Shown here one piece after another: positions 22,960 to 45,387 of a DNA stretch of 45,387 bases; the stretch's first letter is position 1; each line of letters starts with the position of its first letter. The notes beneath the pieces were generated by a model. That model saw nothing but the letters and a program-made list of their open reading frames with translations. It ran no database searches and was not told the DNA's origin. Where the stretch lies: the NCBI GenBank assembly GCA_021814065.1, contig JAKAIZ010000003.1, positions 1 through 45,387 of the forward strand, in the 5' to 3' direction. The translations under genes and the position numbers were made by a program. The stretch comes from Nitrospirota bacterium. GTDB lineage: Bacteria > Nitrospirota > Thermodesulfovibrionia > Thermodesulfovibrionales > UBA6898.

Positions 22960-22973
22960 GTCGCCCGCCATCC

Positions 22974-23645: not shown

Positions 23646-24019
23646 CCTGGAATAATTGGCAATTCTTATGCCACAGCAATGCAGAAGCGCGGGGGGAAGT
23701 AACCCCTTATTTTAGATGAAAAAATTATCTTCTGAGAAAACACGTCCCGTCATTCTTACAGCGAAATTTCCGAAACAAAACGGTAATTTGACCAACGAGA
23801 CGGAAGAATAGAAAATCGTTACTTTCTCGTTAGCGTAGAGGATGGACTGCAAAAATGGATGGAAAGTGTAATAATGCATGATCTTTGCAGAGGACAAAAT
23901 AGTGGGGCTAAAGGACCGAAGCCCTGTTCTAAATATTTTGCAAAAGCGATAAAAGCCCATTCCGGCCGCAGCACGGCTCCAGGTCGCATTATCCTCCGGC
24001 CATGAGGTAAACTAAGAAT

Positions 24020-25946: not shown

Positions 25947-26596
25947 GATCTGACGCCGATACAAAATTCTTCCCTTCCCTCGGGCCCCTTTTCAGCCTGA
26001 CTCTCGTCGGTCTGCTCCTGCTGAGCGCGTTGATATATTACCGGGCAGTGAAGATCCAGCGATTCCTGGAGCCTGCCCTCGCAATCTCCGAGCCGCGCAT
26101 GAAATTCAACCAGGACATAAAGGACCTTCTTTCGCGGGAATTCAGCCCCAAAGAGATGAAGGGCATCAAGTTCAGGGCAGGCACGATCACCGTTGATGAG
26201 TCGCTCATTTTTGAGCGCTCCCATTCCCAGGCGCGACCTGCGGTGCCTGTAGTACTAAAGAAGCTAAGCCGTGTCTTCGCGGCCGCACTCGACAATCCGG
26301 AGATAAGAGAGAATATCAGTCTCATACAGATTACCGCGAGGTTCCCGCTTACCAAGGATATGATACTCAACAGACAGGCAAGGTTTGAGGTGCAGGATAG
26401 CGCTACCCTCATACTGAACTCGATCTTCTCTGCTGAGCCGAGACTCGAGACGTCCTACCCAAGGTTTTTTTCGGCGACCGCCATCCCGACGCTGGCCCCC
26501 CCCAAGGATGGAAGGGTCATTATCGAGTTCCGCATCATCCCGACCGAGCGCCTCCATATCGAAGTACTTGAGAGGTTGGAACGTTATGCATACTGA
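25943..26596 (+). CDS. Single-TM protein with possible divergent OmpA/MotB-like domain
   Basis: N-terminal TM; segment ITVDESLIFERSHSQARPAVPVVLKKLSRVFAAAL...ISLIQITARFPL...ILNRQARFEVQDSATLILNSIF loosely parallels OmpA-like domains; overlaps the upstream RR gene. Confidence 0.5.
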   Translation: MRSDADTKFFPSLGPLFSLTLVGLLLLSALIYYRAVKIQRFLEPALAISEPRMKFNQDIKDLLSREFSPKEMKGIKFRAGTITVDESLIFERSHSQARPAVPVVLKKLSRVFAAALDNPEIRENISLIQITARFPLTKDMILNRQARFEVQDSATLILNSIFSAEPRLETSYPRFFSATAIPTLAPPKDGRVIIEFRIIPTERLHIEVLERLERYAY

Positions 26597-29700: not shown

Positions 29701-29749
29701 ACAGGTCATTGCCGCAAAAATTAAAGGCGATGACAGTCCCTCTGACTGA
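26726..29749 (+). CDS. Polytopic membrane protein fused to spermidine synthase-like methyltransferase-fold domain
   Basis: 1007 aa; N-terminal multi-TM MFS/SpeE-associated region, then KVLVVGLGTGMTLGAVSVHPDLESLTLAEIEPKVLGAARTF...ADPIHPWTQGSGYLYTSEYFKLASEHLRPGGIMCQWLP. Confidence 0.85.
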   Translation: MQVILTGLIYLMFFLSGAAALIYEVVWVRSLSLIFGGTHLAVTAVLSVFMGGLALGGFTIGKKVDTAKKPLRLYGFLEIGIAASAVAFILLMKLYPSAYIFLAQGRDGDRLYLSVIRILFACLALIVPTTLMGGTLPVLTRFVSNRASKTAAHLSFLYGLNTLGAVAGAAAAGFYLLRFYSVSITLHTAIAINFIIGIAAVFLQDPVSAMLDREGTGREVSDRERENFSQDMPAVAASRGNSFLERLVLIGIGVSGFCALGYEVLWTRVLTLTVGTSVYGFTIMLIAFLTGISLGSEMYGFFLRLLPPGKNTQNSRVFGFGLVQCIIGAAALLVTIHIRDLPVHAISLNAFYSSTGLNVFEARQWAGLTIAFSYMLVPAFFMGLAFPLAGSIAADYRKKVGQAVGNVLAYNTIGAILGSAVSGFVLIYLLGIERSLQLLVVLNIGLGLLVMFSMKNRRIAVGLIGGLTLACIAFLSLNREALKVWDEKYFAIFRNNQPDAFDTPEKRRDALENTDVLFYLEGVNSTVSVIKIKGGNQALLVNGKVVASTTLGDRQVQLALGHLPMLLHKDPRKVLVVGLGTGMTLGAVSVHPDLESLTLAEIEPKVLGAARTFGKYNHNVLDNPKLHIVFNDGRNFLLTTKNKYDVITADPIHPWTQGSGYLYTSEYFKLASEHLRPGGIMCQWLPIYEMSVDNLKSVLRTFSLHFKYTMAWLTHFDVELIGSNSPIAIDEAALEKRISFPAISKDLAPVRMASATDFLSYFVMGTDGVKAFSKGGMINTDDNLYLEFSSPASTGINVMGRNLDAIAGYRESILPYLVPASGASRQAQIKTWETNARAALIDDRAHALFLGGKYNMPEFQSLMSELENKYPEYAPARFLRKAYLRELRKNPFLFEKAFFGLLDAQGKKTSVEISAVIAGVSEERAAVVFVDNDAKVIYGQKYFSGEDFEGRMHLFARDVMTAIRTTYQNQSRIAHDAGRSFPEAGPTTLLFKQVIAAKIKGDDSPSD

Positions 29750-29893: not shown

Positions 29894-29909
29894 TGGCATG
29901 GTGATTGCT
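29894..29909 (+). promoter_or_regulatory. Candidate sigma54 (-24/-12) promoter upstream of the propeller/OmcS-like cluster
   Basis: TGGCATG-GTGA-TTGCT matches TGGCACR-N4-TTGCW with correct GG-N10-GC spacing. Confidence 0.5.
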
Positions 29910-29924
29910 CTCTAACGGAACGCC

Positions 29925-30878
29925 ATGAAAAGCACCCTGCAGAAAATCACGATGGCCTTGCCGGCGGCACTCCTTATGGTATCGGTGTCTGCGCCTGCTG
30001 CAAACGCCGAAATAAAGGCCTCATATCTCTACAGCCTTTCTGATTTTTACGGACTGGTCCCATACAGCTGGACAAGGGTGGTCATCGATAACTGGCATGC
30101 AGAGACATACGTCTTGTTCCAAAACAACGTCAAGGTATTCAACGGCAACGGCATGGAGGTCTATGAATTCGGCGATGACATCGACGTCGGCATTATCTAT
30201 GACGTCGCTATAGATGAAAAAACGAACATCTTCCTTCTTACGAACAATAAACAGAAATATTCTATTGTCCGCTGCAATTACCGGGGAGAGCCTAAAGAGA
30301 CGATTGAGATCAAAGGCCTTCCGGATGAACTGAAGGGCTTCATACCGTTCCGCATGGTATACCGCAAGGGGAACTTTTACCTGGCATCCCTAAGCCATAT
30401 GCAGATAGCGGTGGTCGACCGCAACGGCAATTGCCTTGCAAGCTATGACATCAAGCCGATGCTCGAGCTGAGCGAGGAAGAAAAGAAAAAAGGAAGCGAG
30501 ATGGACATGGTCGGCTTTAATGTAGACAACGACGGCAACATGCTCTTCACCATCCCTGCAATCTTCAAGGTCTTCAGGCTGACGCCTGACCGCAAGCTCT
30601 CTTCGTTCGGCCAGCCGGGCAGCATACCCGGCAAGTTCGGCATCGTCTCCGGAGTCGCCGAGGACAACCGCGGCAATTATCTGGTCGTGGACAAATTAAA
30701 GAGCGTGGTGATGGTCTTTGACAAGGATTACACATTTATTACGGAGTTCGGGCATAGGGGGGTGAACCCCGACAATTTTATCGTGCCTGATGAAGTCGCA
30801 ATAGACAAGGGTGACAAGATCTATGTGACACAGACCCGTAACAGGGGGGTGAGCGTTTTTCGTCTGGCGTATGAATAA
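29925..30878 (+). CDS. Secreted NHL/6-bladed beta-propeller protein
   Basis: Signal peptide MKSTLQKITMALPAALLMVSVSAPAANA; repeated propeller blades (FGQPGSIPGKFGIVSGVAEDNRGNYLVVDKLKSVVMVFDKDYTFITEFGHRG). Confidence 0.85.
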   Translation: MKSTLQKITMALPAALLMVSVSAPAANAEIKASYLYSLSDFYGLVPYSWTRVVIDNWHAETYVLFQNNVKVFNGNGMEVYEFGDDIDVGIIYDVAIDEKTNIFLLTNNKQKYSIVRCNYRGEPKETIEIKGLPDELKGFIPFRMVYRKGNFYLASLSHMQIAVVDRNGNCLASYDIKPMLELSEEEKKKGSEMDMVGFNVDNDGNMLFTIPAIFKVFRLTPDRKLSSFGQPGSIPGKFGIVSGVAEDNRGNYLVVDKLKSVVMVFDKDYTFITEFGHRGVNPDNFIVPDEVAIDKGDKIYVTQTRNRGVSVFRLAYE

Positions 30879-31001
30879 TTCACGGCAGTTTTTTGCAGTA
30901 AAATGGCTGCCCAATGAAGGAGGTGGTAAGAACAGAATTTAACTAAAAGCATTGGTTGGAAGAGGACGCCTTGCAGCAAACAGGCGTTCAGGTTATGAAC
31001 C

Positions 31002-31105
31002 AATCCTCCGAAAAGAGTAAACCCATCGCAAGGTGGCGACACAAAGCCGACGGGTCCCCAAGGGACGGCCGGGTTGCCGGAAGAAAAGACAACTTGGAGG
31101 ATTTA
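31002..31105 (+). promoter_or_regulatory. GEMM-I family riboswitch (c-di-GMP-I/cGAMP class) plus Shine-Dalgarno-type expression platform
   Basis: TCCTCCGAAAAGAGTAAACCCATCGCAAGGTGGCGACACAAAGCCGACGGGTCCCCAAGGGACGGCCGGGTTGCCGGAAGA: AAACC...GNRA-capped stem (CCATC-GCAA-GGTGG)...CAAAGCC...GGGTTgCCGG core; 5' strand AATCCTCC (31002-31009) exactly complements GGAGGATT of the downstream ribosome-binding site (31096-31103). Confidence 0.85.
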
Positions 31106-32356
31106 ATGAAAGCAGTAAAAGTGACAATAATTCTCGTCGCTGCAGCGCTCCTTCTCTTTGGGCTCAGCGGTATAAGCTTTGCCTTCCATTCGGGCGGCGT
31201 TGCCGAGTGCATGGGCTGCCACAATATCCACGATGCAAAGAGCAGCTCGGCCCTTCTGGTCGGCACCGACATCAGCTCGACCTGTCTGAGCTGCCACAAC
31301 AGCGCCAGCCCGGGCGGCTACCACATTTCGACCGATGCTTCGGTCATGCCTACGGGGACCCCGCCTGTCAACATGACCCCCGGCGGCGACTTCGCCTGGC
31401 TGAAGAAGACCTACACCTACAGCCCGCGTCCCGGCACGACGACGACCGAGCCCGGCGACGAGCACGGCCACAACATCGTTGCAGTTGATTTTGGTTATGC
31501 GGCTGACGGAACCAACACCACCGCCCCCGGCGGCACCATGGACGCCACCCAGCTCGCCTGCAACAGCTGCCATGACAACCACGGCAAGCTAAGAAGGCTT
31601 TCCGACGGTACTTTCAATACCACCGGCGCCCCGATCATCGCATCGGGTTCTTACAATAATAGCCCGCTTCCTGCAGCAGGCCAGGCTGTAGGCGCATACA
31701 GGCTTCTCCGCGGAACCGGTTCAAGCGCCGGCTCAGGCGGACAAGTCTTTACCTCGATCTTCAACGCGGTTGTCCCCAGCACCTACAACAGGACTGAGGC
31801 TACCACTGCTACCCGCGTAGCATATGGCGCCGGCATATCCGACTGGTGCGGTACTTGCCATCCTGACATGCATTCCGCCACCAGCTCGAAGATGACCCAC
31901 CCGGTCAACCAGCAGCTCGGCACCACAGTGGCGGGCAACTACAATGCCTACATCGGTAGCGGTAACATGACCGGAACGCAGGCGACTTCTTATGATTCTA
32001 TCGTTCCGTTCCAGACCGACAACACAACCGATTTTGCTACGCTGGCGGCCCTTGCGGTCAATGACGGCACCGTTACGACTGGTCCCGCCACTTCCGACAG
32101 GGTGATGTGCCTTAGCTGCCACAGGGCGCATGCAACCGGTTTTGCACATATGACAAGATGGAACAACGAAGGCGAGTTCATCGCAGCCGACGGCGTATGG
32201 CCGGGCACCGACTCCCCGAGCTCGATCGCGAGCGCGGCGAAGTATGCGATGGGCCGTACGGTTGCCGAGATGACGAGGGCTTACAACGACAAGCCTGAGA
32301 CCAACTATGCGACCTATCAGAGGTCTCTATGCAACAAGTGCCACGCAAAAGACTAA
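31106..32356 (+). CDS. omcS: OmcS-like hexaheme c-type cytochrome (nanowire cytochrome family)
   Basis: Signal peptide; 6 CxxCH; OmcS hallmarks FHSGGVAECMGCHNIHD, MTPGGDFAWLKKTYTY, GHNIVAVDFGYAAD, YNRTEATTATRVAYGAGIS, CLSCHRAHATGF, YQRSLCNKCHAKD. Confidence 0.9.
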   Translation: MKAVKVTIILVAAALLLFGLSGISFAFHSGGVAECMGCHNIHDAKSSSALLVGTDISSTCLSCHNSASPGGYHISTDASVMPTGTPPVNMTPGGDFAWLKKTYTYSPRPGTTTTEPGDEHGHNIVAVDFGYAADGTNTTAPGGTMDATQLACNSCHDNHGKLRRLSDGTFNTTGAPIIASGSYNNSPLPAAGQAVGAYRLLRGTGSSAGSGGQVFTSIFNAVVPSTYNRTEATTATRVAYGAGISDWCGTCHPDMHSATSSKMTHPVNQQLGTTVAGNYNAYIGSGNMTGTQATSYDSIVPFQTDNTTDFATLAALAVNDGTVTTGPATSDRVMCLSCHRAHATGFAHMTRWNNEGEFIAADGVWPGTDSPSSIASAAKYAMGRTVAEMTRAYNDKPETNYATYQRSLCNKCHAKD

Positions 32357-32390
32357 TTGCGTAGCTTGAGTAAGCAGTATTTTTTTTCGC

Positions 32391-32425
32391 AAAAGGGCCG
32401 GTTGCCGGCCCTTTTGCCTTTTTTT
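32391..32425 (+). terminator. Intrinsic terminator after the first OmcS-like gene
   Basis: AAAAGGGCCGG-TTG-CCGGCCCTTTT followed by a T tract. Confidence 0.85.
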
Positions 32426-32480
32426 GCAGCGCGCTGCAGCAATAAAGGAGAGAGAATAATAATTCGGGGGGAGTTCTTAA

Positions 32481-33755
32481 ATGCCAAGGCCAGGTATTAC
32501 GAGAATAAAAACAGTGCTTTTCACAGTAGCGATAGCAAAAATATTTATGTTATTGAGCAGTGGGGAGAGCTTCGCCTTTCATTCGGGCGGTGTTGCCGAG
32601 TGCATGGGCTGTCACAACATCCATGATGCCAAAAGCGCAAGCGCGCTTCTGGCAGGGACCGATATCAGTTCCACCTGTCTCGACTGTCATGGCGAATCAG
32701 GGGCCGGCGGCTACCACATAGCGACCCCGGACGCCGATATGCCGGCCGGGACTCCGCCCGGCAATATGACCCCGGGAGGCGACTTCGGCTGGCTGAAGAA
32801 GGCGTATACCTACAGCCCCCGCACGGGCACTACAACTGTCGAGCCGGGCGAGAGGCACGGTCACAACATCGTTGCGGTGGATTTCGGGTACACTGCCGAT
32901 TCAACCAACACAACGGCCCCGGGTGGAGACATGGATGCCACGAAGCTTGCCTGCAACAGCTGCCACGACAACCACGGCAAGTTAAGAAGGATGGGCTCCG
33001 ATGCGGCGCCAACTTTTGGTGTAACAGGCGCCCCGATCATCGCCTCGGGTTCTTACGGCAACAGTCCTGCTCCTGCAGCAGGCCAGGCTGTCGGGGCCTA
33101 TCGGCTGCTTCGCGGACCTGGTTCTACCGCCGGCTCAGGAGGCAAGACATTCACTGCAGTATTCAATGCCGCAGTGCCGGCGACCTACAACAGGTCGGAG
33201 GCAACCACGCCGACTCGCGTTGCCTACGGATACGGGATATCGGAATGGTGCGCAACTTGCCATCCCGACATGCATACCGCCACGAGCTCGAAGATGACCC
33301 ACCCTGTCAATCAGGGATTGAGCTCTGCCGAAGTGGACAACTACAGCAAATATAAAGGCAGCGGCATCATGACCGGATCTGCGGCAACGTCATACGACTC
33401 TCTTGTCCCGTTCCAGACGGACAACACGAGAAATTATACGACCCTCAAGTCGTTAGCGGTGAATGACGGCAGTAAGGCTACCGGGCCGGCTACAAGCGAC
33501 AGGGTCATGTGCCTCAGCTGCCACAGGGCCCATGCCACCGGCTGGCCGCATATGACGAGATGGAACAATGATGGCGAGCTGATCGCGGTAGACGGCGTTT
33601 GGCCGGGGACCGATTCCCCGAGCTCAATCGCCAGTCAGGCGAAGTATGCACAGGGCCGTACAGTGACCGAAACGACAGTGGCATACAACGGCGCAACGAT
33701 GCACTATGCCTCATATCAGAGGTCTCTCTGCAACAAGTGCCACGCAAAAGACTGA
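32481..33755 (+). CDS. Second OmcS-like hexaheme c-type cytochrome (tandem paralogue)
   Basis: 424 aa with 6 CxxCH (CMGCH, CLDCH, CNSCH, CATCH, CLSCH, CNKCH); highly similar along its length to the upstream gene. Confidence 0.9.
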   Translation: MPRPGITRIKTVLFTVAIAKIFMLLSSGESFAFHSGGVAECMGCHNIHDAKSASALLAGTDISSTCLDCHGESGAGGYHIATPDADMPAGTPPGNMTPGGDFGWLKKAYTYSPRTGTTTVEPGERHGHNIVAVDFGYTADSTNTTAPGGDMDATKLACNSCHDNHGKLRRMGSDAAPTFGVTGAPIIASGSYGNSPAPAAGQAVGAYRLLRGPGSTAGSGGKTFTAVFNAAVPATYNRSEATTPTRVAYGYGISEWCATCHPDMHTATSSKMTHPVNQGLSSAEVDNYSKYKGSGIMTGSAATSYDSLVPFQTDNTRNYTTLKSLAVNDGSKATGPATSDRVMCLSCHRAHATGWPHMTRWNNDGELIAVDGVWPGTDSPSSIASQAKYAQGRTVTETTVAYNGATMHYASYQRSLCNKCHAKD

Positions 33756-33777
33756 TTGTGCAGATAAAGCCGTTATT

Positions 33778-33810
33778 CTAAAAAAGGGCCGGCTTACGGC
33801 CCTTTTTTAG
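33778..33810. terminator. Bidirectional-type intrinsic terminator after the second OmcS-like gene
   Basis: CTAAAAAAGGGCCG-GCTTA-CGGCCCTTTTTTAG, 14-bp perfect stem. Confidence 0.85.
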
Positions 33811-33948
33811 TTGAATTTGGAATATTCTTGTTCTAAGATTTTATTAGTGTTTCGTTAGTTATTATGCGAAATGAGGCATTATCGTGCGGAAACCGCTTTT
33901 TTTGCGCGGCAGCGGATTGCTGTGTGGCATGAACAAAAGGGAGTCATC

Positions 33949-35388
33949 GTGAAGATCTGTATGATATTTTATATTAATAAGTGTAGGCCCCTTTTCCTCA
34001 TTTCGGTTCTTCTGTCGATCTCGTTTCTTCTGTCCTGCCAGGCAAAACCGTTTTCGATCAAACCCGCCCTCGAGGAAAACGGCGAGGTTTTTCTCTACCT
34101 TCAGCCCCTGTCTCAGGAGGCGGAGCGGCTCAAATTCAGCCTGAAGGCTGTATACGCCCAAAAGGATGACGGGAAAGAGATCCCCCTGGACCTCTCTTTT
34201 ACGGGGATCGCCTTCGGCAAAGACGTAAGACAGAGATGCCTAGCCACCGGGGAGCTTCCTCCCGGCAATTACCGGGGGCTATCTTTTAAGGTGAAGGATG
34301 CCACGCTTACTACGGAGGAAGGCGCGGCCGGACTTAGCGTACCCGAAAAACCTACCCCCGTCGAATTTCCGTTCACAATACGGAGGCAGAAGGCGTCTCT
34401 TCTTGCGATGACGTTGAAATACAGGGAATCGGTAATCGAGGGGTTCCGCTTCAGCCCTTCGTTCTCTGTCTCGGTCCCGGCCAGGCCCCCCACCGGGCTG
34501 TCGGGCTATGTGTCGAACAACGACGCCCACGACGTCGCGGTCATCGACAAAGGCGCAGGCGAGGTGACAGGGATGATAGCAACGGGGACCGGTCCCCACG
34601 GCATGGTCATAGACCAGATGCGCGGGAAGGTCTATGTGGCGCTCACCGGAGACGATGCGATCGACGTGATCGATTCAGGCGCCGGCGACGTGGTCGGCAG
34701 GATTCAACTTAGAAGAGGGGACAACCCGGAAGAGCTTGCGCTTGTCCCGGGCAACAGGACGCTGCTTTCCACGAATGCCGGCTCGGACACTGTGAGCTTT
34801 ATCGATGCCGGCTCCCTGCTCGAGACGGAGCGCGTTTCGGTCGGGCAGAACCCTGTCTCCCTTCTCATCGATAGCACCGGCAGCCGCGCCTATGTCTTCA
34901 ATACCCTCTCGAACACCATTTCTGTAATAGACATCACGGGGAAGACGGTCATCGCGACGCTCTCGACTGAACCCGAACCATTACGTGGACAGTTCAACCG
35001 CAGGGGAGACAGGCTGTACGTGATCCATGGGAGGTCGCCCTATCTCACTATTATAGACGTCCCATCCCTTTCGGTGGTGAGGAGGGAGTTCCTGGGCATG
35101 GGGGCAAGCTCCATCAAGGTGGACAGCAGGACCGACATGCTCTATATCGGCAAGAAGTTCGAAGACGGCGTCTCGGTATACGACCCGCTTTCTTTTCAGC
35201 CTGTCGATTATATTCAGACCGGCGCAGCGGTCGGATACATGACTATAGACGGCGATGAAAACAATCTCTATCTCGTGATGCCCGAGAAAAAAAGCCTCAG
35301 GGCGGTGAACCTTGTCAGCAGAAAGACGGTCTTTGAGATTGATTTCTGCGAATCCCCTTATTGGATTACCGTCATGGGAGAGAGGTAG
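33949..35388 (+). CDS. YVTN-type beta-propeller lipoprotein
   Basis: GTG start at 33949 preceded by GGGAG; lipobox FLLSC; propeller repeats (VSNNDAHDVAVIDKGAGEVTGMIATGTGPHGMVIDQMRGKVYVAL, ...NTLSNTISVIDITGKTVIATL). Confidence 0.85.
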   Translation: MKICMIFYINKCRPLFLISVLLSISFLLSCQAKPFSIKPALEENGEVFLYLQPLSQEAERLKFSLKAVYAQKDDGKEIPLDLSFTGIAFGKDVRQRCLATGELPPGNYRGLSFKVKDATLTTEEGAAGLSVPEKPTPVEFPFTIRRQKASLLAMTLKYRESVIEGFRFSPSFSVSVPARPPTGLSGYVSNNDAHDVAVIDKGAGEVTGMIATGTGPHGMVIDQMRGKVYVALTGDDAIDVIDSGAGDVVGRIQLRRGDNPEELALVPGNRTLLSTNAGSDTVSFIDAGSLLETERVSVGQNPVSLLIDSTGSRAYVFNTLSNTISVIDITGKTVIATLSTEPEPLRGQFNRRGDRLYVIHGRSPYLTIIDVPSLSVVRREFLGMGASSIKVDSRTDMLYIGKKFEDGVSVYDPLSFQPVDYIQTGAAVGYMTIDGDENNLYLVMPEKKSLRAVNLVSRKTVFEIDFCESPYWITVMGER

Positions 35389-37562
35389 ACAGCCTGAAAT
35401 ATCTATTCCCATTGGTAGTGTTGGTCTTCGGCGGGATGCTGCTGCCTGCCGATGCCCTTGCCGACGGCATCATTGGTTATCTGGACCTGAGCTACTCTAA
35501 CTCCCATACTGAAACGACAGACGCGAGCGGCGCCTCCACCGACACGAAGCTGAACTCGTTCAATCAGCAGCTTAACCTTACCCTGACAAAAACAATCTAC
35601 CCTAACCTGAGGCTGCTGGCAAACGGCATATTCGAAAACGACAAGATCAATTCAGAGACAAACGGCGTTGAAACCGACTCAACTACAAGGATCCTCAGGC
35701 CCTTCGTAGACCTTACCCTAAGGACGCCGCTTTATACTGCAGGGGTGAACTACACACGGAGAGAGACGAAGAATTCGGTTGCGGACCTGCCCTCCACTAC
35801 CGACGTGAACGAGGCTTACAGCGCCATCCTCGGCTGGAGGCCGGATGGTTTTCCTTCCTTCGACATGCGTTATGTGCATACGAACACCTTTGACAAGGAG
35901 CATCTCGTCCGTGACAACGCGGACGACTTCTTCTCCCTTCAGTCCCAGTACGACCCGGTGAGGGGTGTGGGGCTCAGGTATAGGGGGACCTACGACGACA
36001 GCAAGGAAAAACTTCAGGAGCTCGAGACAAAGAACCTGACGAATGACGCAAGGATAACCTATGACGGGAAGTTTCTGCGCGACCGGGCGACCGTCAGTGC
36101 GAGCTATGAGATTACGACGAGGTCCACCGAGATCATCACGAGCGGCCAGGGGGAGGTGGATTTTCAGATATTCCCCTTTTCCGGGCTCTCGTCGATCGAC
36201 GATACGCCACTACAAGGTGTGCTCGACCCTAACCCGGCCCTGATCGACGGCAACCTGACTGCCGCTGCCGGCATCAACATAGGTCTTCCCCAGGTGGGAG
36301 GGGACACGAAACCGAGAAACATAGGGCTTGATTTCGTCGCAAATACAGAGGTGAACGAGCTGTTCCTGTATGTGGACAGAGAGCTTCCTGCAGAGGTGGC
36401 CGCCTCTTTTTCGTGGGACGTCTATATCAGCCCGGACAATCTGAACTGGACCCTCTGGAGCCCCCTCGTAAAGGCGCAATACGATGCCTTCCGGAACAGG
36501 TTCGAGATAGGCTTTCAGAACGTGCAGACGAGGTATATCAAGGTGGTGGTCAATCCCCTTTCCCCAGCGGTGTTGGGGGCGACGCAATTTCCTAACATCC
36601 TTGTGACCGAAATGGAGGCATACATCAGGAGAGCGGCTGAAGGTGTGAAGGGGAAGATAAAAAGCACCACGCACAACGTCGGTCTGGATGGCAGGTACAG
36701 GCTTTTGGACGATCCCCTCCTCTATTACGAGGTCTCCTATTTTCTGATCCAGCAGACGGGGGTCATTTCTTCGAAGATTTCGACCTTGTCAAACGGCTTC
36801 TCGGTGAGCAAGAGGCTCAGCAGGGTTTTTTCCGGGAATGCGAGAATAGCGAGGGAGGACAGCGTCGACCGGCTCGGCAATACCCACGCGTACGTATACA
36901 GCGCGGCGCTCAATGCGACCCCGCTTAAGACGCTTAGCCACAGCCTCACCTTTAGCGGCCGAAACGAGACCAACCCCCAGGGGAAGCTCGACCGGAACAG
37001 CATTTTTCTCTATAACTCGGCCGACTTATATACCGGCATCAGCCTCTATGCAAGCGGAGGGCTCGGCTTCTCAACACTCGAGACCGGCAGAAAACAGGAC
37101 AGTACCATCTTAAACGGAGGTACAAATATCGTACCGAACCGCTACCTCTCTCTGAACCTGAACTATGCCTCTACTGTCACGGACGAGACCGGCGGAGGTC
37201 TTCCGGAGGCCTCATTCACCACGAGGAGGACGGACGTTGGGGTGACGTGCAGACCTTTCCCGCTATTGTATCTCGTTGCCTCCTGGGGCTGGGTGACGGA
37301 CATGGACAGAAAGATGACACTCCAGAATTATGGGGTGAACTGGACGCCGTTCGTCGACGGACAACTCCAGTTCAGCTTTGCGTATAATGAGAACCTGCAG
37401 TCGGACATTAACGGAAAGGTGAAGAATCTTCTCGCGGCCGTGCGCTGGAACATCACACAGCGGTCCTACCTTGACGTCGCCTACCAGGTGATCGATACTT
37501 CCTCCGTAACGGAGACCGCCAAGGCCAATATTTTTAGTACTACTTTGAGGATATATTATTGA
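35361..37562 (+). CDS. Outer-membrane beta-barrel protein with internal discoidin (F5/8C)-like domain
   Basis: Signal-like N-terminus, cysteine-free, alternating amphipathic strands, C-terminal ...ANIFSTTLRIYY; internal segment SFSWDVYISPDNLNWTLWSPLVKAQYDAFRNRFEIGFQNVQTRYIKVVVNPL. Start uncertain: TTG 35361 or CTG 35394. Confidence 0.75.
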   Translation: MDYRHGREVDSLKYLFPLVVLVFGGMLLPADALADGIIGYLDLSYSNSHTETTDASGASTDTKLNSFNQQLNLTLTKTIYPNLRLLANGIFENDKINSETNGVETDSTTRILRPFVDLTLRTPLYTAGVNYTRRETKNSVADLPSTTDVNEAYSAILGWRPDGFPSFDMRYVHTNTFDKEHLVRDNADDFFSLQSQYDPVRGVGLRYRGTYDDSKEKLQELETKNLTNDARITYDGKFLRDRATVSASYEITTRSTEIITSGQGEVDFQIFPFSGLSSIDDTPLQGVLDPNPALIDGNLTAAAGINIGLPQVGGDTKPRNIGLDFVANTEVNELFLYVDRELPAEVAASFSWDVYISPDNLNWTLWSPLVKAQYDAFRNRFEIGFQNVQTRYIKVVVNPLSPAVLGATQFPNILVTEMEAYIRRAAEGVKGKIKSTTHNVGLDGRYRLLDDPLLYYEVSYFLIQQTGVISSKISTLSNGFSVSKRLSRVFSGNARIAREDSVDRLGNTHAYVYSAALNATPLKTLSHSLTFSGRNETNPQGKLDRNSIFLYNSADLYTGISLYASGGLGFSTLETGRKQDSTILNGGTNIVPNRYLSLNLNYASTVTDETGGGLPEASFTTRRTDVGVTCRPFPLLYLVASWGWVTDMDRKMTLQNYGVNWTPFVDGQLQFSFAYNENLQSDINGKVKNLLAAVRWNITQRSYLDVAYQVIDTSSVTETAKANIFSTTLRIYY

Positions 37563-37629
37563 CAACAGGTGAGGCCGTAAATTAATATAGAAAATCCTTG
37601 CTAAACTATATAAACTACGCGAGAAAAAC

Positions 37630-38214
37630 ATGGCAAATATAAAAAAAATAGCAGCAAATAGTGTGATCGCATTTTCAGTTCTCTTTTCTTTGTTGGCCTG
37701 CGGAGGCAAAGCCTCTACGTATTGGCACGACCCCGAAATGGATTTCGGCTCGGTCAAGACGGTTGCCGTGATGCCTTTTGTAAACGCTACAAGGGACCAG
37801 TTCGCCGCTGAAAGGGTAAGGGCTGCTTTTATCAACAGGCTCCTGGCGACAGGCGGAATCTATGTGATGCCGAAAGGCGAGGTCGCAAGGGGTATTTCGA
37901 GGGCGGGGATTACGGACCCCACTGCTCCCTCGCCCGAGGAAATCCAGAAATTTGCCGGAATTGTAAAAGTCGATGCGGTAATCACCGGTACGGTGAGCGA
38001 ATATGGAGAGGTAAGATCCGGAACGTCGGCAGCTAACGTCGTGTCGGTCAGCATGCAGATGATCGAGGCGCAGACAGGCAGAGTCGTCTGGAGTGCGTCT
38101 TCAACAAAAGGCGGCATTGACGTAAGTGACAGACTCTTTGGAGGTGGAGGGCAACCCATGGCTGACGTTACTGGAAAGGCTGTGGATGACATTATCGACA
38201 AGCTATTTAAGTAG
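37630..38214 (+). CDS. CsgG/GNA1162-like lipoprotein
   Basis: Lipobox SLLAC; VKTVAVMPFVNATRDQFAAERVRAAFINRLLATGGIYVMP...VDAVITGTVSEYG...SMQMIEAQTGRVVWSA. Confidence 0.75.
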   Translation: MANIKKIAANSVIAFSVLFSLLACGGKASTYWHDPEMDFGSVKTVAVMPFVNATRDQFAAERVRAAFINRLLATGGIYVMPKGEVARGISRAGITDPTAPSPEEIQKFAGIVKVDAVITGTVSEYGEVRSGTSAANVVSVSMQMIEAQTGRVVWSASSTKGGIDVSDRLFGGGGQPMADVTGKAVDDIIDKLFK

Positions 38215-39391
38215 ACCTTTTCTCTTCCTTTCCCTAGTGATGATCCTTCTGGGAAGTTGTGCGAGCAGTGGACTCTCCGGCGCGGTGAAATCACTTGACG
38301 CAAAGGGAAAATATCGTATAGCCGTGTTGCCGATTGAAAACCTGAGCGGCGCTCCTGCACCATTTAAGGACCTGCGCCTCTCGATTATGCAAAAAATGAA
38401 GCAGCGGGGCATGACCCTGCTCGGAGAAGAAGCACTTGATCGATTTATGGAAAAGAACCGCATACGCTATATAGGAGGTCTTGATGGACCGACGGCCGAC
38501 GCGTTCAGGAAGGAAGCGGATACGGACGCAGTCCTCATCAGTTCCCTGGAACGCTATGACGAGACGTTTCCTGCAAAGATCTCATTGATCTGCCGGTTGG
38601 TCTCGACGGGTGAGCACCCCGTGGTTCTCTGGGCGGACAGGGCCGGCCTGTCAGGCAATGATTCGCCGGGGCTCCTCGGGCTCGGGATAATTGAGGACCC
38701 CCTCGTGCTCACTGATAAGGCGTTAACGCTTTTGGCGGATTCTCTCGCCGGATACCTTTCGGCTGGGGAGAAGAAGGGCGATGGTGTTGCCGCGAGAAGG
38801 CAGCCCCCGCTGGAGGGCCCATACCGCTCCCCTGTGACCGGCTATCGTTATCAGAGAGTCGAGGTCGGGGGGAGAAGCAGTTTCCGGCCGAGGATAGAGT
38901 ACCGCTCCCTTGTCATACGGCCGGACAAGAGATACCGGGTGGCGGTCCTGCCTTTCCAGAATCTGAGCGTGAGGAAGAACGCCGGGGAGATCGTGGCGCT
39001 GGAGTTTATAGGGCAATTGAGCAAACTGGGAAACGTCAGTGTCGTCGAACCCGGCGTGATAAGAGAGGAGATGCTTAGCAAGAGGATTATCATGTCCGGC
39101 GGCGTTTCCCTTGCGGATGTGGACCTCCTGAGCGACTACCCGGAAGTCGACCTGATCGTCTCCGGTACGGTCTTCGATTATCAGGATTATATCGGATTTG
39201 GCGGTAAACCGAAGGTGGATTTCTCGGCGCAGGTCATAGACAGGAAGAGCAAGCAGCTGGTCTGGGCCTCGGAAAGTCAGAATGAGGGCGACGACGGCGT
39301 CTTGTTCTTTGACCTGGGAAGATTAAATACTGCCAATGCCATGGCATCTGAAATGGTCGGTATTACCGTCGGGCAGATGATGTCTGAATAG
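38186..39391 (+). CDS. Lipoprotein with two tandem CsgG-like lobes
   Basis: ATG at 38186, lipobox LLGSC; two similar units starting KGKYRIAVLPIENLSG and DKRYRVAVLPFQNLSV; second unit ...VDLIVSGTVFDYQ...SAQVIDRKSKQLVWASES. Confidence 0.7.
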   Translation: MTLSTSYLSRPFLFLSLVMILLGSCASSGLSGAVKSLDAKGKYRIAVLPIENLSGAPAPFKDLRLSIMQKMKQRGMTLLGEEALDRFMEKNRIRYIGGLDGPTADAFRKEADTDAVLISSLERYDETFPAKISLICRLVSTGEHPVVLWADRAGLSGNDSPGLLGLGIIEDPLVLTDKALTLLADSLAGYLSAGEKKGDGVAARRQPPLEGPYRSPVTGYRYQRVEVGGRSSFRPRIEYRSLVIRPDKRYRVAVLPFQNLSVRKNAGEIVALEFIGQLSKLGNVSVVEPGVIREEMLSKRIIMSGGVSLADVDLLSDYPEVDLIVSGTVFDYQDYIGFGGKPKVDFSAQVIDRKSKQLVWASESQNEGDDGVLFFDLGRLNTANAMASEMVGITVGQMMSE

Positions 39392-39413
39392 AATTTCTAC
39401 ATAAGAGGTGATT

Positions 39414-41141
39414 ATGGTCATTAAGAAGGTCTTTTCGGTAGTTGTTTTATTTCTGTTTTCTGCGTCTGTGGCAGCTGCAGCCGGGGAGACGCCGTCAGCG
39501 GCTGGGGCAGAAAAAAAGTCGGACGCTGACAAGGAGTATATCACCTTGCGCGTCCCTTTCTTTTCGGACCGCTTCTCCGCGTTTCCGGTCGCGCTGGTGA
39601 ACGGGGACCCGATTATGCTTGAAGACCTCAAGAAGGTGGTCGGGGCCCGTCACGAGGGCTTGAAAGAGGAAGAGAAGTCGGCCGTCATAGATTTTTCTCA
39701 TATGCTCGGCCAGCTGATAAACGCGAAGCTGATCGTGCAGGAGGGGAGAAATATCGGGCTTGACGAACTTCCGGAGGTGAAAGCGGCTATAGACAACTTC
39801 TCCAAGTCCACCATGCGGGAGATGCTGCAGAAGCGGCAGATTGCGGACATCAAGGCGGACGAGTCCGAAGCAGAAAGGATATACAAGGAATCGGTCAAGG
39901 AGTACAAGATCAAACTGGTCGTGTTCGACAAGGAAGATGCCGCCAAAAAGACCCGCGATGGGATAAAGGCGGGCAAGTCGTTTGAAGAACTCGTGGACAA
40001 GGCTGTGGCCGGGAATGAGGCGAAGAAGAAGGAAGAGGAGCATATGAAGGCCAAAGACCTTTCGCCCCAGATTGCGCAGGTTATTGCCGGGATGAAGGCT
40101 GGAGACGTGAGCGGCGTCGTGAAGGTTCCCGATGAAAAGGCCGGCGCCCGGTTTGCCCTGGTGAAACTCGAGGAGATCCGGTTCCCGGATGACCCGAAGG
40201 CAAAGGAGGAGGCCCGGAAAACGGCCCTCTCAGAAAAGCAGTGGGCGGCGCTGACCAAGTACAACAGGGCACTGGCCAAGAAGTATGTGAAGCTGGACAA
40301 GAAGGTCTTCGATTCCATAGATTACGCCACTCCAGGTAAAACCTTTGAGAGCTGGTTAACGGACAGGAGGGTCATCGCCCGGATAAAGGGAGACAAGCCC
40401 CTGACCGTCGGAGAACTAACCGCGGAGGTCCAGAGGAAATATTACCACGGCGTAGACGCCAAGTCTGCCAAGAGGATAACGAAACAAAGGATGATCGAGG
40501 TCTACGAATCGGTGGTCGCCAGGAAAATCCTGCTGCTGGAGGCGATGAAACAGGGCATCGACAAGACACAGGAGTACAAGGACAAGGTGAAGGAGTATGA
40601 GAACGGCGTGATATTCGGTATGTTCGTCAGGAAGGTCGTGGAGCCTGACAGCAAACTCAAAGAAGAGGAAGTCAAGGCGTACTATGATGATCACATCAAG
40701 GACTACACATACCCGGAAATGGTGCAGCTGAGCAGTCTTGTCTTTGCCAAGAGGCCGGAGGCTGAATCCGCGCTCGAAAAACTCCAGAAAGGAGACGACT
40801 TTTTGTGGGTGAAGGACAATGCTGAAGGTCAGGTGACCGGGACCGAAGACCCCCTGAGATTCGACGGCGCAACGCTTTTTGTCACTAATCTGCCTGATGA
40901 ACTGCAGAAGGTGGTCTCGGGCGCCAAGGCCGGCACGTATGGAATGTACTCGGCCACGGGCCAGTATTATGTCGTTTCCATACGCGACATAATACCCCCG
41001 AAGAAACAGCCTTACGAGGAGGTCAAGGAAGCGATTGCGAAGAAACTCTACAATGAGAAGATCAACAAGGTGACTGCAGATTGGGCTGCAAAACTCAGGG
41101 CGTCTTCCGAGATAAAGATTTACCTCTCGAATTCCAAATAA
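39414..41141 (+). CDS. SurA/PpiC-like periplasmic peptidyl-prolyl isomerase/chaperone
   Basis: Signal peptide; SurA-N-like VALVNGDPIMLEDLKKVV; parvulin-like segments (VVFDKEDAAKKTRDGIKAGKSFEELVDKAV... and SSLVFAKRPEAESALEKLQKGDDF...VSIRDIIPPKKQPYEEVKEAIAKKL). Confidence 0.8.
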   Translation: MVIKKVFSVVVLFLFSASVAAAAGETPSAAGAEKKSDADKEYITLRVPFFSDRFSAFPVALVNGDPIMLEDLKKVVGARHEGLKEEEKSAVIDFSHMLGQLINAKLIVQEGRNIGLDELPEVKAAIDNFSKSTMREMLQKRQIADIKADESEAERIYKESVKEYKIKLVVFDKEDAAKKTRDGIKAGKSFEELVDKAVAGNEAKKKEEEHMKAKDLSPQIAQVIAGMKAGDVSGVVKVPDEKAGARFALVKLEEIRFPDDPKAKEEARKTALSEKQWAALTKYNRALAKKYVKLDKKVFDSIDYATPGKTFESWLTDRRVIARIKGDKPLTVGELTAEVQRKYYHGVDAKSAKRITKQRMIEVYESVVARKILLLEAMKQGIDKTQEYKDKVKEYENGVIFGMFVRKVVEPDSKLKEEEVKAYYDDHIKDYTYPEMVQLSSLVFAKRPEAESALEKLQKGDDFLWVKDNAEGQVTGTEDPLRFDGATLFVTNLPDELQKVVSGAKAGTYGMYSATGQYYVVSIRDIIPPKKQPYEEVKEAIAKKLYNEKINKVTADWAAKLRASSEIKIYLSNSK

Positions 41142-41154
41142 GCGAGGAGATGAA

Positions 41155-43137
41155 ATGGGCATAATACGTATCACCAAGAGGACCGCGCTGGTAGGGATGT
41201 TAGCCTTCCTTTGCGGGCTCATTCTTTATTCCGTAAACGGCACTGCCCTTGCGCAGAAGAAGTTTGCGAGCAAGGGCTGTCTCGATTGTCATACAAAATT
41301 TGCTGATAAGTATATGGGGATGAAAGATGTGCATGCCGTGGTGAAGGAGAAGAATTGCGAGGCGTGCCATCTAAGACACGGAAGGGTCCCGAAGCTGATC
41401 CTCAAGAATACCGGAAACGAGGTCTGTTATCCCTGCCACAGCAAAGAGAAGATCGGGATGGACAAGTCCCACGTGCATACTGCGGTGAAACTCGGGAAAT
41501 GTACCCTCTGCCACGACCCGCATGCCTCACAATCGAGCCATCTGTTGAAGGCCGAGGGCAACGACGTCTGTTATCTCTGCCACAAGAAGGAAGACTACCA
41601 AAAGAAGGTGGTGCATAAGGTCCTCGAGACAACCGGCTGCAGGACCTGTCATCTTGCGCACAGCTCCGATCAAAAGGGGCTCCTAAAGCAAGCGGAGACG
41701 CCCCTATGCCTTTCGTGTCACGACAAGGGGAAGGACTCCTTCAAGAAGGCCCACGAGAACTACCCAGTCGAGACCAAACCCTGCACGATATGCCATAACC
41801 CACATTCATCGTCCCAGCCGAAGCTTCTCAAGACGAGTACTCACAACCCGGTCGCATCGTCGGGCTGCGACATGTGCCATAACCCTCCCGCTTCCCAGAA
41901 GCCTTTCGAGACAACGAAAAGCGGGAGCGATTTATGCGTTACCTGCCACGACATAGCGGCACTGAAGGCCGGCGGCACCTTTGAACATCCGCCTTTCCAG
42001 GGCGGAATGTGCGGTTCCTGTCATGACCCTCACGCCTCGGAAAACCCGAAGCTGCTCGCCCGGGAAGGGAACAAACTCTGTTTCTCCTGCCATGCAGATA
42101 AAGAGGCGAAGGTCGCGACCCCGCACGGTGCGGTGATCAGCGGGAAAGGATGTCTTTCCTGCCATATGCCCCATGCGGCAAAGAACGAAAAACTCCTCGT
42201 GGCAAAAGGCGGTGAACTCTGCTTTACCTGTCACGCCAAGGTGAAAGAGAGCGAGAATGCGAAGGACGTGCATATGCCGTTTAAGCAGCAGATGTGCACG
42301 TCATGCCACAATCCTCACGGCTCCGACTACGGCCTCATGCTGAAGAACAGGATGGACAAGGTCTGCTACTCCTGCCACGTCGATGCCGAGGCGAGGTTCC
42401 TTCAGGTGTATACCCACAAGCCGGTCACAGACGGTCTCTGCAACTCCTGTCACGACGGGCATAGTACAAATGGAAATAAGCTCCTGAAAGAGACCGGCTC
42501 GAAGCTTTGTGCGCAATGCCACAAGGTCCTCATGAAAGAGGCAGGCACCAGCGGCGGATCTACTCATGTGCCTTTTAAAGAGGGGATGTGCCTGACCTGC
42601 CACAGCCCGCATGGAAGCCCCAACGTAGGCATGACCGTGGAGAGGCAGGACAAGCTCTGTTTCTCCTGCCATAGCGAGCTTGGTGAAACGATAAAGGGAG
42701 GGGTGAGCAAACACTCGCCCGTTGTGAACGGCCAATGCACAAAGTGCCATAATCCTCACCGGTCGAAATTGAGCAAGCTGAGGGTTGCCGAGGGTCCTGA
42801 TCTCTGTCTGACCTGTCACAAGGACCTGAAGGCGAAGATGGAGAAGGAGAAGGCCCATCCCCCAGCGGCAAGCGACTGCCTGCGGTGCCATAAGCCACAC
42901 AGTTCGTCACAGCCGAGGCTTGTTGCCCAGCCGCTCCTGCAACTCTGCGGCGACTGTCACGACCTGAAGGGGGCCTCCTTCGGAAAGGCGCATATCGGGA
43001 TCGATCCGGCGGTTATGAATTGTGTGAGCTGCCATACACCCCACGCGTCGAAGGACCCGAAACTGTTCAAGGAAAATGTCCATCCTCCCTTTGCCGGGAG
43101 GTCATGTGAAGAATGCCATGTGGTGGAAAAGCGATGA
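41155..43137 (+). CDS. 26-heme c-type cytochrome
   Basis: 660 aa; 26 CxxCH motifs counted by eye; repeated CxxCHxPH doubled-CXXCH pattern; N-terminal TM/signal sequence. Confidence 0.92.
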   Translation: MGIIRITKRTALVGMLAFLCGLILYSVNGTALAQKKFASKGCLDCHTKFADKYMGMKDVHAVVKEKNCEACHLRHGRVPKLILKNTGNEVCYPCHSKEKIGMDKSHVHTAVKLGKCTLCHDPHASQSSHLLKAEGNDVCYLCHKKEDYQKKVVHKVLETTGCRTCHLAHSSDQKGLLKQAETPLCLSCHDKGKDSFKKAHENYPVETKPCTICHNPHSSSQPKLLKTSTHNPVASSGCDMCHNPPASQKPFETTKSGSDLCVTCHDIAALKAGGTFEHPPFQGGMCGSCHDPHASENPKLLAREGNKLCFSCHADKEAKVATPHGAVISGKGCLSCHMPHAAKNEKLLVAKGGELCFTCHAKVKESENAKDVHMPFKQQMCTSCHNPHGSDYGLMLKNRMDKVCYSCHVDAEARFLQVYTHKPVTDGLCNSCHDGHSTNGNKLLKETGSKLCAQCHKVLMKEAGTSGGSTHVPFKEGMCLTCHSPHGSPNVGMTVERQDKLCFSCHSELGETIKGGVSKHSPVVNGQCTKCHNPHRSKLSKLRVAEGPDLCLTCHKDLKAKMEKEKAHPPAASDCLRCHKPHSSSQPRLVAQPLLQLCGDCHDLKGASFGKAHIGIDPAVMNCVSCHTPHASKDPKLFKENVHPPFAGRSCEECHVVEKR

Positions 43138-43148
43138 AAGGAGAAGGT

Positions 43149-44429
43149 ATGAAACTGTACCGTCGATATAGATATGCGCTCGTCTTGTCCGTGGTCTGGC
43201 TTGTCTGTCTCGCAGCCCTGGCCCATGGCGAGGATAACAAGTTCAAACTGAAAATGGGCGCAAAGGGGAAGATCTGTCTGAACTGTCACGTGGACTTCCA
43301 GGACAAGATGAAGGACCCCTTTGTGCATACCCCCGTCAAGACCGGAGACTGCACCGGCTGCCACAGCCCCCATGCGTCTTCGCACGCAAAAATGCTTGCG
43401 GAACAGGTGAGCAAGGTCTGCGCCGGATGTCACGGCGAGATCGTCCCAAAAAATGCGGTCAGCGCGCACAAGGTAGTGGTCGAGGGCGGATGCATAAAGT
43501 GCCATGACCCGCACTCCGCTAAAAACAAGTTCAATCTGCTGAAGGCGGGCAACGAGCTCTGTTTCGGCTGCCACAAAGATATGGGAGATGCAGTCGGAAA
43601 GGTGAAGTTCAGGCATGCGCCTGTTGAGAAGGGATGTCTCACGTGTCATAACCCCCACGCTTCAGAGAAATCAGCGTTTCTGCTTACGGATGCCGTACCT
43701 TCTCTGTGTCTGGGGTGCCATAAAACGAACGCGCCGTCGTTTGCGAAGCAGCATATGAATTATCCTGTTGCAAAGGCCCGCTGCACGACCTGTCATAACC
43801 CTCACGGGTCCAACAGGGGCGGGATCCTCTATGACAATGTTCATCAGCCGGTCGCCAACAGGATGTGCAACCAGTGCCATATGGACCCTTCGTCGCCGAC
43901 TCCATTTGCAACGAAGAAGCCGGGGTACGAGTTGTGCCGGACATGTCACAGTAACGCCGTCAATGAGATGTTGGGCAAGAACAAGATCCACTGGCCGGTG
44001 CTTGGCAAGAAAGGCTGCCTAAACTGTCATAATCCGCACGCATCGACACAGGCTAAACTTCTGAGAGCGCCGATGATACCGCTCTGCAACACGTGTCATA
44101 ACGATACGATACAGAGGCAGGAACGCTCTCAGACCAAACATCCGCCGATACAGGAAGGCAACTGTACGATATGCCATAACCCGCACGCGTCGGACGCGGA
44201 TTTCCTCTTCGCCCAGCCGACGATTATCGGCGTCTGCAATACCTGCCACGACTGGAGGAACCATACCGGACACCCGCTTGGTGAAAAAGTCATGGATCCG
44301 AGGAACAGGAACGTGGCCGTAACATGTGAAAGCTGCCACCGGGCGCACGGCACCGAGAACAAGCATTTCATCTGGTTTACGCCGATGGATGAAATGTGCA
44401 CCCAGTGCCACAAACAGGTAGGGAGGTGA
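43149..44429 (+). CDS. 16-heme c-type cytochrome
   Basis: ATG at 43149 with upstream AAAGGAG; 16 CxxCH motifs counted by eye; doubled-CXXCH repeats (CHNPHAS). Confidence 0.92.
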   Translation: MKLYRRYRYALVLSVVWLVCLAALAHGEDNKFKLKMGAKGKICLNCHVDFQDKMKDPFVHTPVKTGDCTGCHSPHASSHAKMLAEQVSKVCAGCHGEIVPKNAVSAHKVVVEGGCIKCHDPHSAKNKFNLLKAGNELCFGCHKDMGDAVGKVKFRHAPVEKGCLTCHNPHASEKSAFLLTDAVPSLCLGCHKTNAPSFAKQHMNYPVAKARCTTCHNPHGSNRGGILYDNVHQPVANRMCNQCHMDPSSPTPFATKKPGYELCRTCHSNAVNEMLGKNKIHWPVLGKKGCLNCHNPHASTQAKLLRAPMIPLCNTCHNDTIQRQERSQTKHPPIQEGNCTICHNPHASDADFLFAQPTIIGVCNTCHDWRNHTGHPLGEKVMDPRNRNVAVTCESCHRAHGTENKHFIWFTPMDEMCTQCHKQVGR

Positions 44430-44433
44430 TCCA

Positions 44434-45339
44434 ATGACAAGAACGTATATAAAAATCTTTGTTGTAGTTTTCGTGCTTTCGCTGGCGACCGCTTCATTCG
44501 GCGCCGCGGTGCAGATGATTTTCAGTTCCTCGGTCTATGGCGACGCTAAGGGAAACGGGTTGAAGCTCCCCGAAGGTGTCGCCTGCAGGGGGAATGTCCT
44601 AGTAGTTGCCGATACTGGAAACGGCCGGCTGCTGAAATACACGGTCGACGGCTCGACGGTAAAAGGCGGGCAGGAGATCAAGGTTGCGGAAGCGACAGAC
44701 CCCGTGAAGGTGCAGATGAATTCCAAGGGCGATATTTTCGTCCTGGACGGAAAACTGCACCGGATTGCCCGGCTTTCTCCTGAGGGGATATTCAAGGGTT
44801 ATATCGATCCTGCCGGCGTGCCGTCTCCTTCTGAGTTTATCACCAAGAGCTTCAAGATCGATGGCGCGGACAATATCTATATCCTCGATGTATTTTCCGG
44901 GCGCGTACTTGTCCTTGATCCCTCGGGAAAGTACGTGAGGCAGGTGGCGTTCCCGGAGAACTACGGATTCATCACGGACCTTGCAGTGGACCAGAAGGGC
45001 GACATTTATCTTCTCGACGGCGCAGACGCAAGGGTATATGAGGCGCAGGGAGACGGCTCGAAGGGATTCTCTGCGGTGACGAAGGATATGGAGCAGGACA
45101 TGAATTTCCCTGCAAATATGATCGTGGACAACAGCGGACAATTGTACCTTGCCGACCAGAACGGCGGCGGCGTGGTGGTCCTCGGACCGGACGGCTCTTT
45201 CAGGGGCCGCCCGATCGTCTTCGGATGGAAAGAAGGTCTTGTCCGGTATCCGGCTGAGCTTTCCATCAATGAAAACGGGGTCTTCTTTGTGGCAGACAGG
45301 GAAAACAGCCGCGTTCAGGTTTACACGCTGGTGAAATGA
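44434..45339 (+). CDS. Secreted NHL/6-bladed beta-propeller protein
   Basis: Signal peptide MTRTYIKIFVVVFVLSLATASFGA; NHL repeats (LPEGVACRGNVLVVADTGNGRLLKYTVDG; FVADRENSRVQVYTLVK). Confidence 0.85.
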   Translation: MTRTYIKIFVVVFVLSLATASFGAAVQMIFSSSVYGDAKGNGLKLPEGVACRGNVLVVADTGNGRLLKYTVDGSTVKGGQEIKVAEATDPVKVQMNSKGDIFVLDGKLHRIARLSPEGIFKGYIDPAGVPSPSEFITKSFKIDGADNIYILDVFSGRVLVLDPSGKYVRQVAFPENYGFITDLAVDQKGDIYLLDGADARVYEAQGDGSKGFSAVTKDMEQDMNFPANMIVDNSGQLYLADQNGGGVVVLGPDGSFRGRPIVFGWKEGLVRYPAELSINENGVFFVADRENSRVQVYTLVK

Positions 45340-45387
45340 TGAAGAGCGCGAAAAGTTTGCTGCTGGGCATCCTTGCAGGGGCGGTCC
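45336..45387 (+). CDS. Truncated ORF beginning with a signal-peptide-like sequence
   Basis: ATGATGAAGAGCGCG... = MMKSAKSLLLGILAGAV, overlapping the stop of the upstream gene; runs off the window end. Confidence 0.5.
   Translation, partial: MMKSAKSLLLGILAGAV

Follow-up and report, generated by a model that had tools for sequence, protein, structure and literature searches.

Background

The omcS companion (osc) cluster of Geobacter sulfurreducens extends from about GSU2505 to GSU2493 (PMC13194489; PMC12977616). Within it, an eight-gene block from GSU2500 to GSU2493, downstream of an omcS-like gene, has been linked to OmcS maturation and secretion (PMC12977616), and oscC, oscI and oscJ correspond to GSU2501, GSU2495 and GSU2494, respectively (PMC13194489). 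The latter paper cites Shen et al. 2025 for the involvement of OscH in folding, of OscE, OscF and OscG in secretion and of OscD in morphology. One axial histidine of OmcS is contributed by the neighbouring subunit (PMC6584659), and the crossing of the outer membrane by a heme-loaded cytochrome, as well as its polymerization, are both still called speculative in a review (PMC12307469). Here, a stretch of 45,387 nucleotides from a Nitrospirota bacterium (contig JAKAIZ010000003.1, assembly GCA_021814065.1; hereafter the window) was analyzed. Our data indicate that it very probably holds a Nitrospirota member of the osc cluster, with two OmcS-type filament subunits and a dedicated machinery for folding, export and maintenance. 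The type of system is already published; what this analysis adds is a well-supported member from another phylum, a closer structural parallel for its lipoproteins, the riboswitch upstream of the first OmcS gene and a pointer to a divergent sister system.

Organization of the cluster

The window is one whole contig of a 3.3 Mb genome (94% complete). According to the open reading frames (ORFs), eleven + strand genes occupy positions 29925-45339, in the following order and with three RNA elements among them:

29925-30878, + strand: NHL/6-bladed propeller protein with signal peptide, OscA position (PF17170 over cut-off; conserved first gene of the cluster)
31006-31081, + strand: GEMM-I riboswitch (cyclic di-GMP-I, or c-di-GMP-I, class) in the 5' leader of OmcSa
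31106-32356 (mechanical ORF from 30956), + strand: OmcS homologue a (OmcSa), hexaheme (PDB 6ef8, E 4e-109; mature protein beginning FHSGG)
32389-32417, + strand: intrinsic-terminator-like hairpin after OmcSa (13 pairs, T run)
32481-33755, + strand: OmcS homologue b (OmcSb), hexaheme (6ef8, E 1e-100; 76% identical to OmcSa)
33778-33810, + strand: intrinsic-terminator-like hairpin after OmcSb (T run)
33961-35388 (ORF from 33871), + strand: YVTN beta-propeller lipoprotein, OscD position (TIGR02276, E 3e-29; lipobox LLSC)
35361-37562, + strand: predicted outer-membrane beta-barrel, OscE position (beta-rich low-confidence model; C-terminal F/Y/L in the alignment; gene position)
37630-38214, + strand: LpA, GNA1162/PelC-like lipoprotein, OscF position (PF05643, 46.8 bits against a cut-off of 25.9; GNA1162 and PelC structure matches; invariant Cys24)
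38186-39391 (ORF from 38126), + strand: LpB lipoprotein, OscG position (hhalign to LpA; PelC structure match; alignment)
39408-41141, + strand: periplasmic PpiC-type prolyl isomerase/chaperone, OscH position (PF13145, E 6e-26)
41155-43137, + strand: 26-heme cytochrome, OscI position (26 CXXCH; PF09699 in 13 stretches)
43113-44429, + strand: 16-heme cytochrome, OscJ position (16 CXXCH)
44434-45339, + strand: NHL-repeat propeller, GSU2493 position (PF01436, E 2e-19; conserved last gene of the block)

The mechanical ORFs of OmcSa, the YVTN propeller and LpB probably begin too early, and starts near 31106, 33961 and 38186 were preferred because they match signal peptides, lipoboxes and the alignment. 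CXXCH counts were exactly 6, 6, 26 and 16. An earlier note, made on this DNA from its letters and ORFs, had described a compact one-strand set with two OmcS-like proteins, 26- and 16-heme proteins, a PpiC-like isomerase and YVTN and NHL propellers; all the genes that it named were recovered, the OmcS-like ones by matches over the full chain.

From the YVTN propeller lipoprotein to the last NHL propeller, the window genes match GSU2500-2493 in number, order and, where named, position, and the two OmcS-type hexaheme genes lie directly upstream of this eight-gene block. Both clusters thus share OmcS homologues followed by the same eight genes in the same order, including the 26- and 16-heme cytochromes, as well as a GEMM riboswitch on the OmcS operon. 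They differ in that the window belongs to another phylum, carries two OmcS paralogues instead of OmcS, OmcT and OscC, places these in a clade of their own and has an A at the presumed specificity base of its riboswitch. The nearest relative searched (L032) holds the same collinear cluster, with an OmcS 72% identical to 6ef8. The earlier note had listed comparable parts in the Geobacter omcS neighbourhood and read the locus as one for assembly and export of OmcS-type nanowires; the published gene order agrees with both statements, and synteny and co-occurrence support the second. Its view of the lipoproteins and barrel as less-described parts did not hold, these positions being already within the published osc cluster. 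The roles reported in Geobacter for OscD, OscE, OscF, OscG and OscH belong to positions orthologous to these window genes.

Conservation and co-occurrence with OmcS

The searches covered a Geobacter-type set of 141 genomes, drawn from the order of L005 (a metagenome-assembled genome, MAG, of the Desulfuromonadaceae), and 396 Nitrospirota genomes; G. sulfurreducens itself lay outside the genomes searched. OmcS homologues were present in 33 of the 141 Geobacter-order genomes; 28 of these 33, and no other genome of the set, had full-length LpB, so that OmcS accompanied LpB/OscG in 28/28 genomes versus 5/113 of the others (Fisher p 9e-25). Within the Nitrospirota, strong OmcS matches were found in 15 of the 16 genomes with full-length or split LpB versus 4 of the remaining 380 (p 1e-22). 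In the phylum to which L006 belongs, a strong LpB was found in around 18 genomes. A plasmid search with the isomerase gave no match. Among fetched loci, the same gene order was seen in about 25 Geobacter-order genomes, often with an extra OmcS-type gene following the final NHL propeller, and the block was collinear in about a dozen Nitrospirota. The lipoproteins and prolyl isomerase were nearly always encoded between barrel and cytochromes in the loci compared. The earlier note would have taken a lack of conserved co-occurrence between the companions and OmcS homologues in other genomes as refutation; the searches showed the opposite, namely collinearity and a nearly exclusive association of OscG with OmcS.

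The sister MAG 'Nitrospirae bacterium SKS1.bin124' (G465, locus L004), from the same genus, carries the same cluster with 93-98% protein identity, except for a broken OmcSb, and DNA synteny with it covers most of the window (14755-45387). Its second OmcS gene (L004:5373-6120) is about 570 bases short; the loss may be genuine, or two similar copies may have been collapsed during assembly. As the window ends with its contig, the genes that come next can be followed in this sister genome.

Variant arrangements were also observed. In the split clusters L050, L053 and L055, OmcS, YVTN propeller, barrel, LpA and LpB share one strand and the isomerase is divergent, as is the 26-heme gene in L050. Four Nitrospirota genomes (G289, G535, G352 and G511) had a strong OmcS and no full-length OscG match.

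The OmcS-type proteins

OmcSa and OmcSb aligned to the solved OmcS filament subunit (6ef8, 6nef) over the whole mature chain, with six CXXCH motifs in the same order, about 52% identity and shorter loops. Both copies keep 14 of the 17 OmcS histidines, namely all six CXXCH histidines and eight further ones, His16 included. We take His16 to be the inter-subunit heme ligand of OmcS, a function that Wang et al. 2019 reportedly assigned to it. In the OmcS tree, the two proteins belong to a ten-member Nitrospirota clade (support 0.975) separate from the subclade of solved OmcS. OmcSa and OmcSb are predicted to form filaments.

A putative PelBC-like exporter

LpA has a lipobox, and its Cys24 is invariant in the alignment. 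It matched PF05643 (GNA1162-like) and PF13036 (LpoB), and its matches among solved structures were GNA1162 (4hrv) and PelC (9h80). LpB had no significant Pfam match. However, hhalign pairs its C-terminal half with LpA (98%), its N-terminal half is probably a second LpA-like domain, and the best structure match of its profile was PelC (E 6e-4), although weaker than that of LpA. LpoB, GNA1162, PelC and CsgG belong to related branches of one fold superfamily, and to our knowledge neither PelC nor GNA1162 has barrel strands of its own. The lipoproteins had been called CsgG-like in the earlier note, which named the wrong family: neither matches PF03783, and the only CsgG gene detected in this genome is on another contig (L001, G000:C195:10562-11143; PF03783, E 2e-55).

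No Pfam or NCBIfam family was matched by the barrel as a whole protein at E 0.01, nor were MtrB/PioB or any solved structure by sequence. AlphaFold2 models built on shallow alignments of window and related-locus sequences reached a predicted local distance difference test (pLDDT) score of 36 for the barrel (4 sequences), with only a beta-rich pattern visible, and of 38 for LpB (3 sequences). The discoidin-bearing barrel of the earlier note is thus weakly supported, the F5/8 type C match of an insert at residues ~260-430 also staying below the cut-off (E 0.0097).

In the PelBC complex, a ring of 12 PelC lipoproteins sits on the PelB barrel (PDB 9h80; PMC12141448). Because LpA and LpB resemble PelC and GNA1162, the OscE, OscF and OscG positions may best be likened to this ring-plus-barrel exporter, both systems encoding lipoproteins of the same fold family beside a large predicted barrel. 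The analogy has its limits: the cargo would be a protein and not a polysaccharide, the window has two lipoproteins, one of them probably two-domain, the ring is hypothetical, and the window barrel is dissimilar in sequence to every solved structure. The CsgG curli channel likewise shares a small lipoprotein of related fold linked to fibre export, but the window lipoproteins do not match its family and a separate barrel gene is present.

Some LpB/OscG homologues are enlarged by repeats. Calx-beta repeats lie between the two halves of L059:11001-14927, with similar repeats in L060:1-1609 and L062:11290-14109, and immunoglobulin-like (Ig-like)/Y_Y_Y repeats are N-terminal in L053:9204-12017, with similar ones in L055:8123-10252.

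Riboswitch and upstream genes

The sole Rfam RNA in the window is the GEMM-I riboswitch (RF01051; 52.3 bits against a gathering threshold of 35, E 1.7e-07), which ends 25 bases upstream of the probable start of OmcSa. A scan of 42 further loci revealed GEMM-I in seven Nitrospirota and four Geobacter-order clusters, and in all 12 osc loci carrying it, window included, it lies directly upstream of an OmcS gene. The presumed specificity position, which we mapped through Vc2 numbering, carries A in the window, like that of cGAMP (cyclic GMP-AMP) binders, and G in most other Nitrospirota copies. The ligand would be a cyclic dinucleotide. In G. sulfurreducens, the GEMM riboswitch of the OmcST operon responds to cGAMP and c-di-GMP (PMC6456294). 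The window element shares its aptamer class and its place upstream of OmcS genes with the GEMM-I/GEMM-Ib riboswitches of Geobacter; it differs in that its ligand is putative and its genome has no clear Hypr cyclase, the clearly read GGDEF genes having the canonical Asp. Strong T-run hairpins follow both OmcS genes and could keep expression of the machinery below that of the subunits; the earlier note had noticed neither the riboswitch nor the hairpins.

A HAMP-GGDEF protein at 10633-11958 (- strand) was considered as a cGAMP maker. It is degenerate, carrying the Ser diagnostic of Hypr enzymes but the motif GGDDF, whereas natural Ser-type Hypr enzymes have been reported with GGDE[F/Y] only; it also has no homologue in the 20 kb upstream of the sister-genome cluster, and the candidate was dropped.

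Directly upstream of the cluster, on the same strand, is a fused major facilitator superfamily (MFS)-like/spermidine-synthase protein (26726-29749), which adjoins the cluster in the sister MAG too. Two two-component systems, one of NtrC type (within 20127-26596), and a receiver-PilZ protein (22974-23645, - strand) lie just beyond. Sigma-54-like sites occurred at chance level in the window (34 versus 36 expected), and no promoter is proposed on their basis, although one site with a single mismatch lies at 29894-29908.

Evolution and a second deep lineage

A concatenated tree of six machinery proteins placed the window in a 14-member Nitrospirota clade that adjoins the Geobacter-order clade and is not nested within it. 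Since the support of this clade was 0.73, a sister relationship of the window cluster to the Geobacter-order clusters can be proposed with moderate confidence only.

A second deep lineage, here called type II, was detected by LpB similarity in about 31 Nitrospirota genomes, and six of its loci were read:

L063: G364:C49
L064: G427:C13
L065: G285:C9
L066: G325:C51
L067: G507:C11
L068: G457:C1

Their order is NHL, YVTN, barrel, LpA, LpA', LpB, PpiC, 26-heme and 16-heme, with an extra LpA paralogue and about 22-39% identity. GEMM-I was absent from the six loci scanned. OmcS relatives lie on their flanks, with a profile match to 6ef8 at E 2e-20; all 13 aligned sequences have CX5CH at the third heme site and CXXCH at the other five. 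It is possible, though still doubtful, that osc represents a PelBC-like protein exporter of ancient origin with two or more deep lineages, of which type I would serve OmcS and type II its divergent five-CXXCH plus CX5CH relatives, an undescribed nanowire class.

Alternative interpretations

Several points weigh against an OmcS nanowire cluster in the window. Its OmcS proteins are not inside the subclade of solved OmcS, orthology to the G. sulfurreducens Osc proteins was traced through near relatives, the best OmcS being 72% identical, and through published gene order, and the barrel and LpB structure models are too poor to use. Authentic OmcS is unrecognizable outside the genus, as PMC12977616 warns, and whether OmcS filaments are needed physiologically is under dispute (PMC11077965). 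The block might instead be a general secretion machinery for multiheme cytochromes, its OmcS-type proteins being non-polymerizing surface or extracellular cytochromes in this organism. Genomes that have the block with a GSU2501-type hexaheme protein only and no authentic omcS (PMC12977616) fit this proposal, as do the tree position and the different OmcS relatives of type II clusters. However, the identity of about 52% extends over the whole chain and all likely axial histidines are kept, His16 included, and we consider general secretion rather unlikely.

The barrel and the 26- and 16-heme proteins could also be an MtrCAB-like porin-cytochrome conduit and not a protein exporter, given a large predicted barrel encoded near large periplasmic multiheme cytochromes. 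This was rejected as improbable, because the barrel has no MtrB/PioB match and lipoproteins and isomerase intervene almost everywhere; moreover, OscE, OscF and OscG are reported as necessary for OmcS secretion (PMC13194489). Little probability is also given to a CsgG-type pore, in which the two lipoproteins would form the channel and the barrel would be accessory. The related fold and the matches of LpA to PF05643 and PF13036 point in that direction, but membership of the CsgG family was rejected on the unmatched PF03783 and the nearest structures, PelC and GNA1162, and a separate large predicted barrel gene always adjoins those of the lipoproteins. As the system was first described in Geobacter and related MAGs often lack the cluster (for example G366, of the same genus), a recent transfer of the complete cluster out of Geobacter was weighed; it was rejected as very improbable in view of the tree placement and of orthologue identities to the Geobacter-type order of mostly ~30-60%.

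Proposed working and significance

Under the preferred reading, an osc cluster dedicated to OmcS-type filaments, a cyclic dinucleotide on the riboswitch would set OmcSa transcription, and the hairpin after each OmcS gene would make subunit transcripts more abundant than those of the machinery. The PpiC-type chaperone may keep heme-loaded OmcS competent for assembly in the periplasm. Beneath the barrel, on the periplasmic side of the outer membrane, LpA and LpB would form a ring or funnel, as PelC does under PelB; OmcS would exit there and then stack head to tail. The propellers may work at the mouth of the exporter or influence the shape of the filament, and electrons would come from the 26- and 16-heme proteins.

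With recent import from Geobacter rejected, this Nitrospirota cluster reveals the parts conserved across a deep divergence, among which the PelC-like lipoproteins and their adjoining barrel are the likely exporter core. It also links nanowire genes of a second phylum to control by cyclic dinucleotides and provides divergent homologues that could be used in cross-complementation and structural studies. If the proposal of two deep lineages is true, type II clusters would make up an undescribed class of nanowires.

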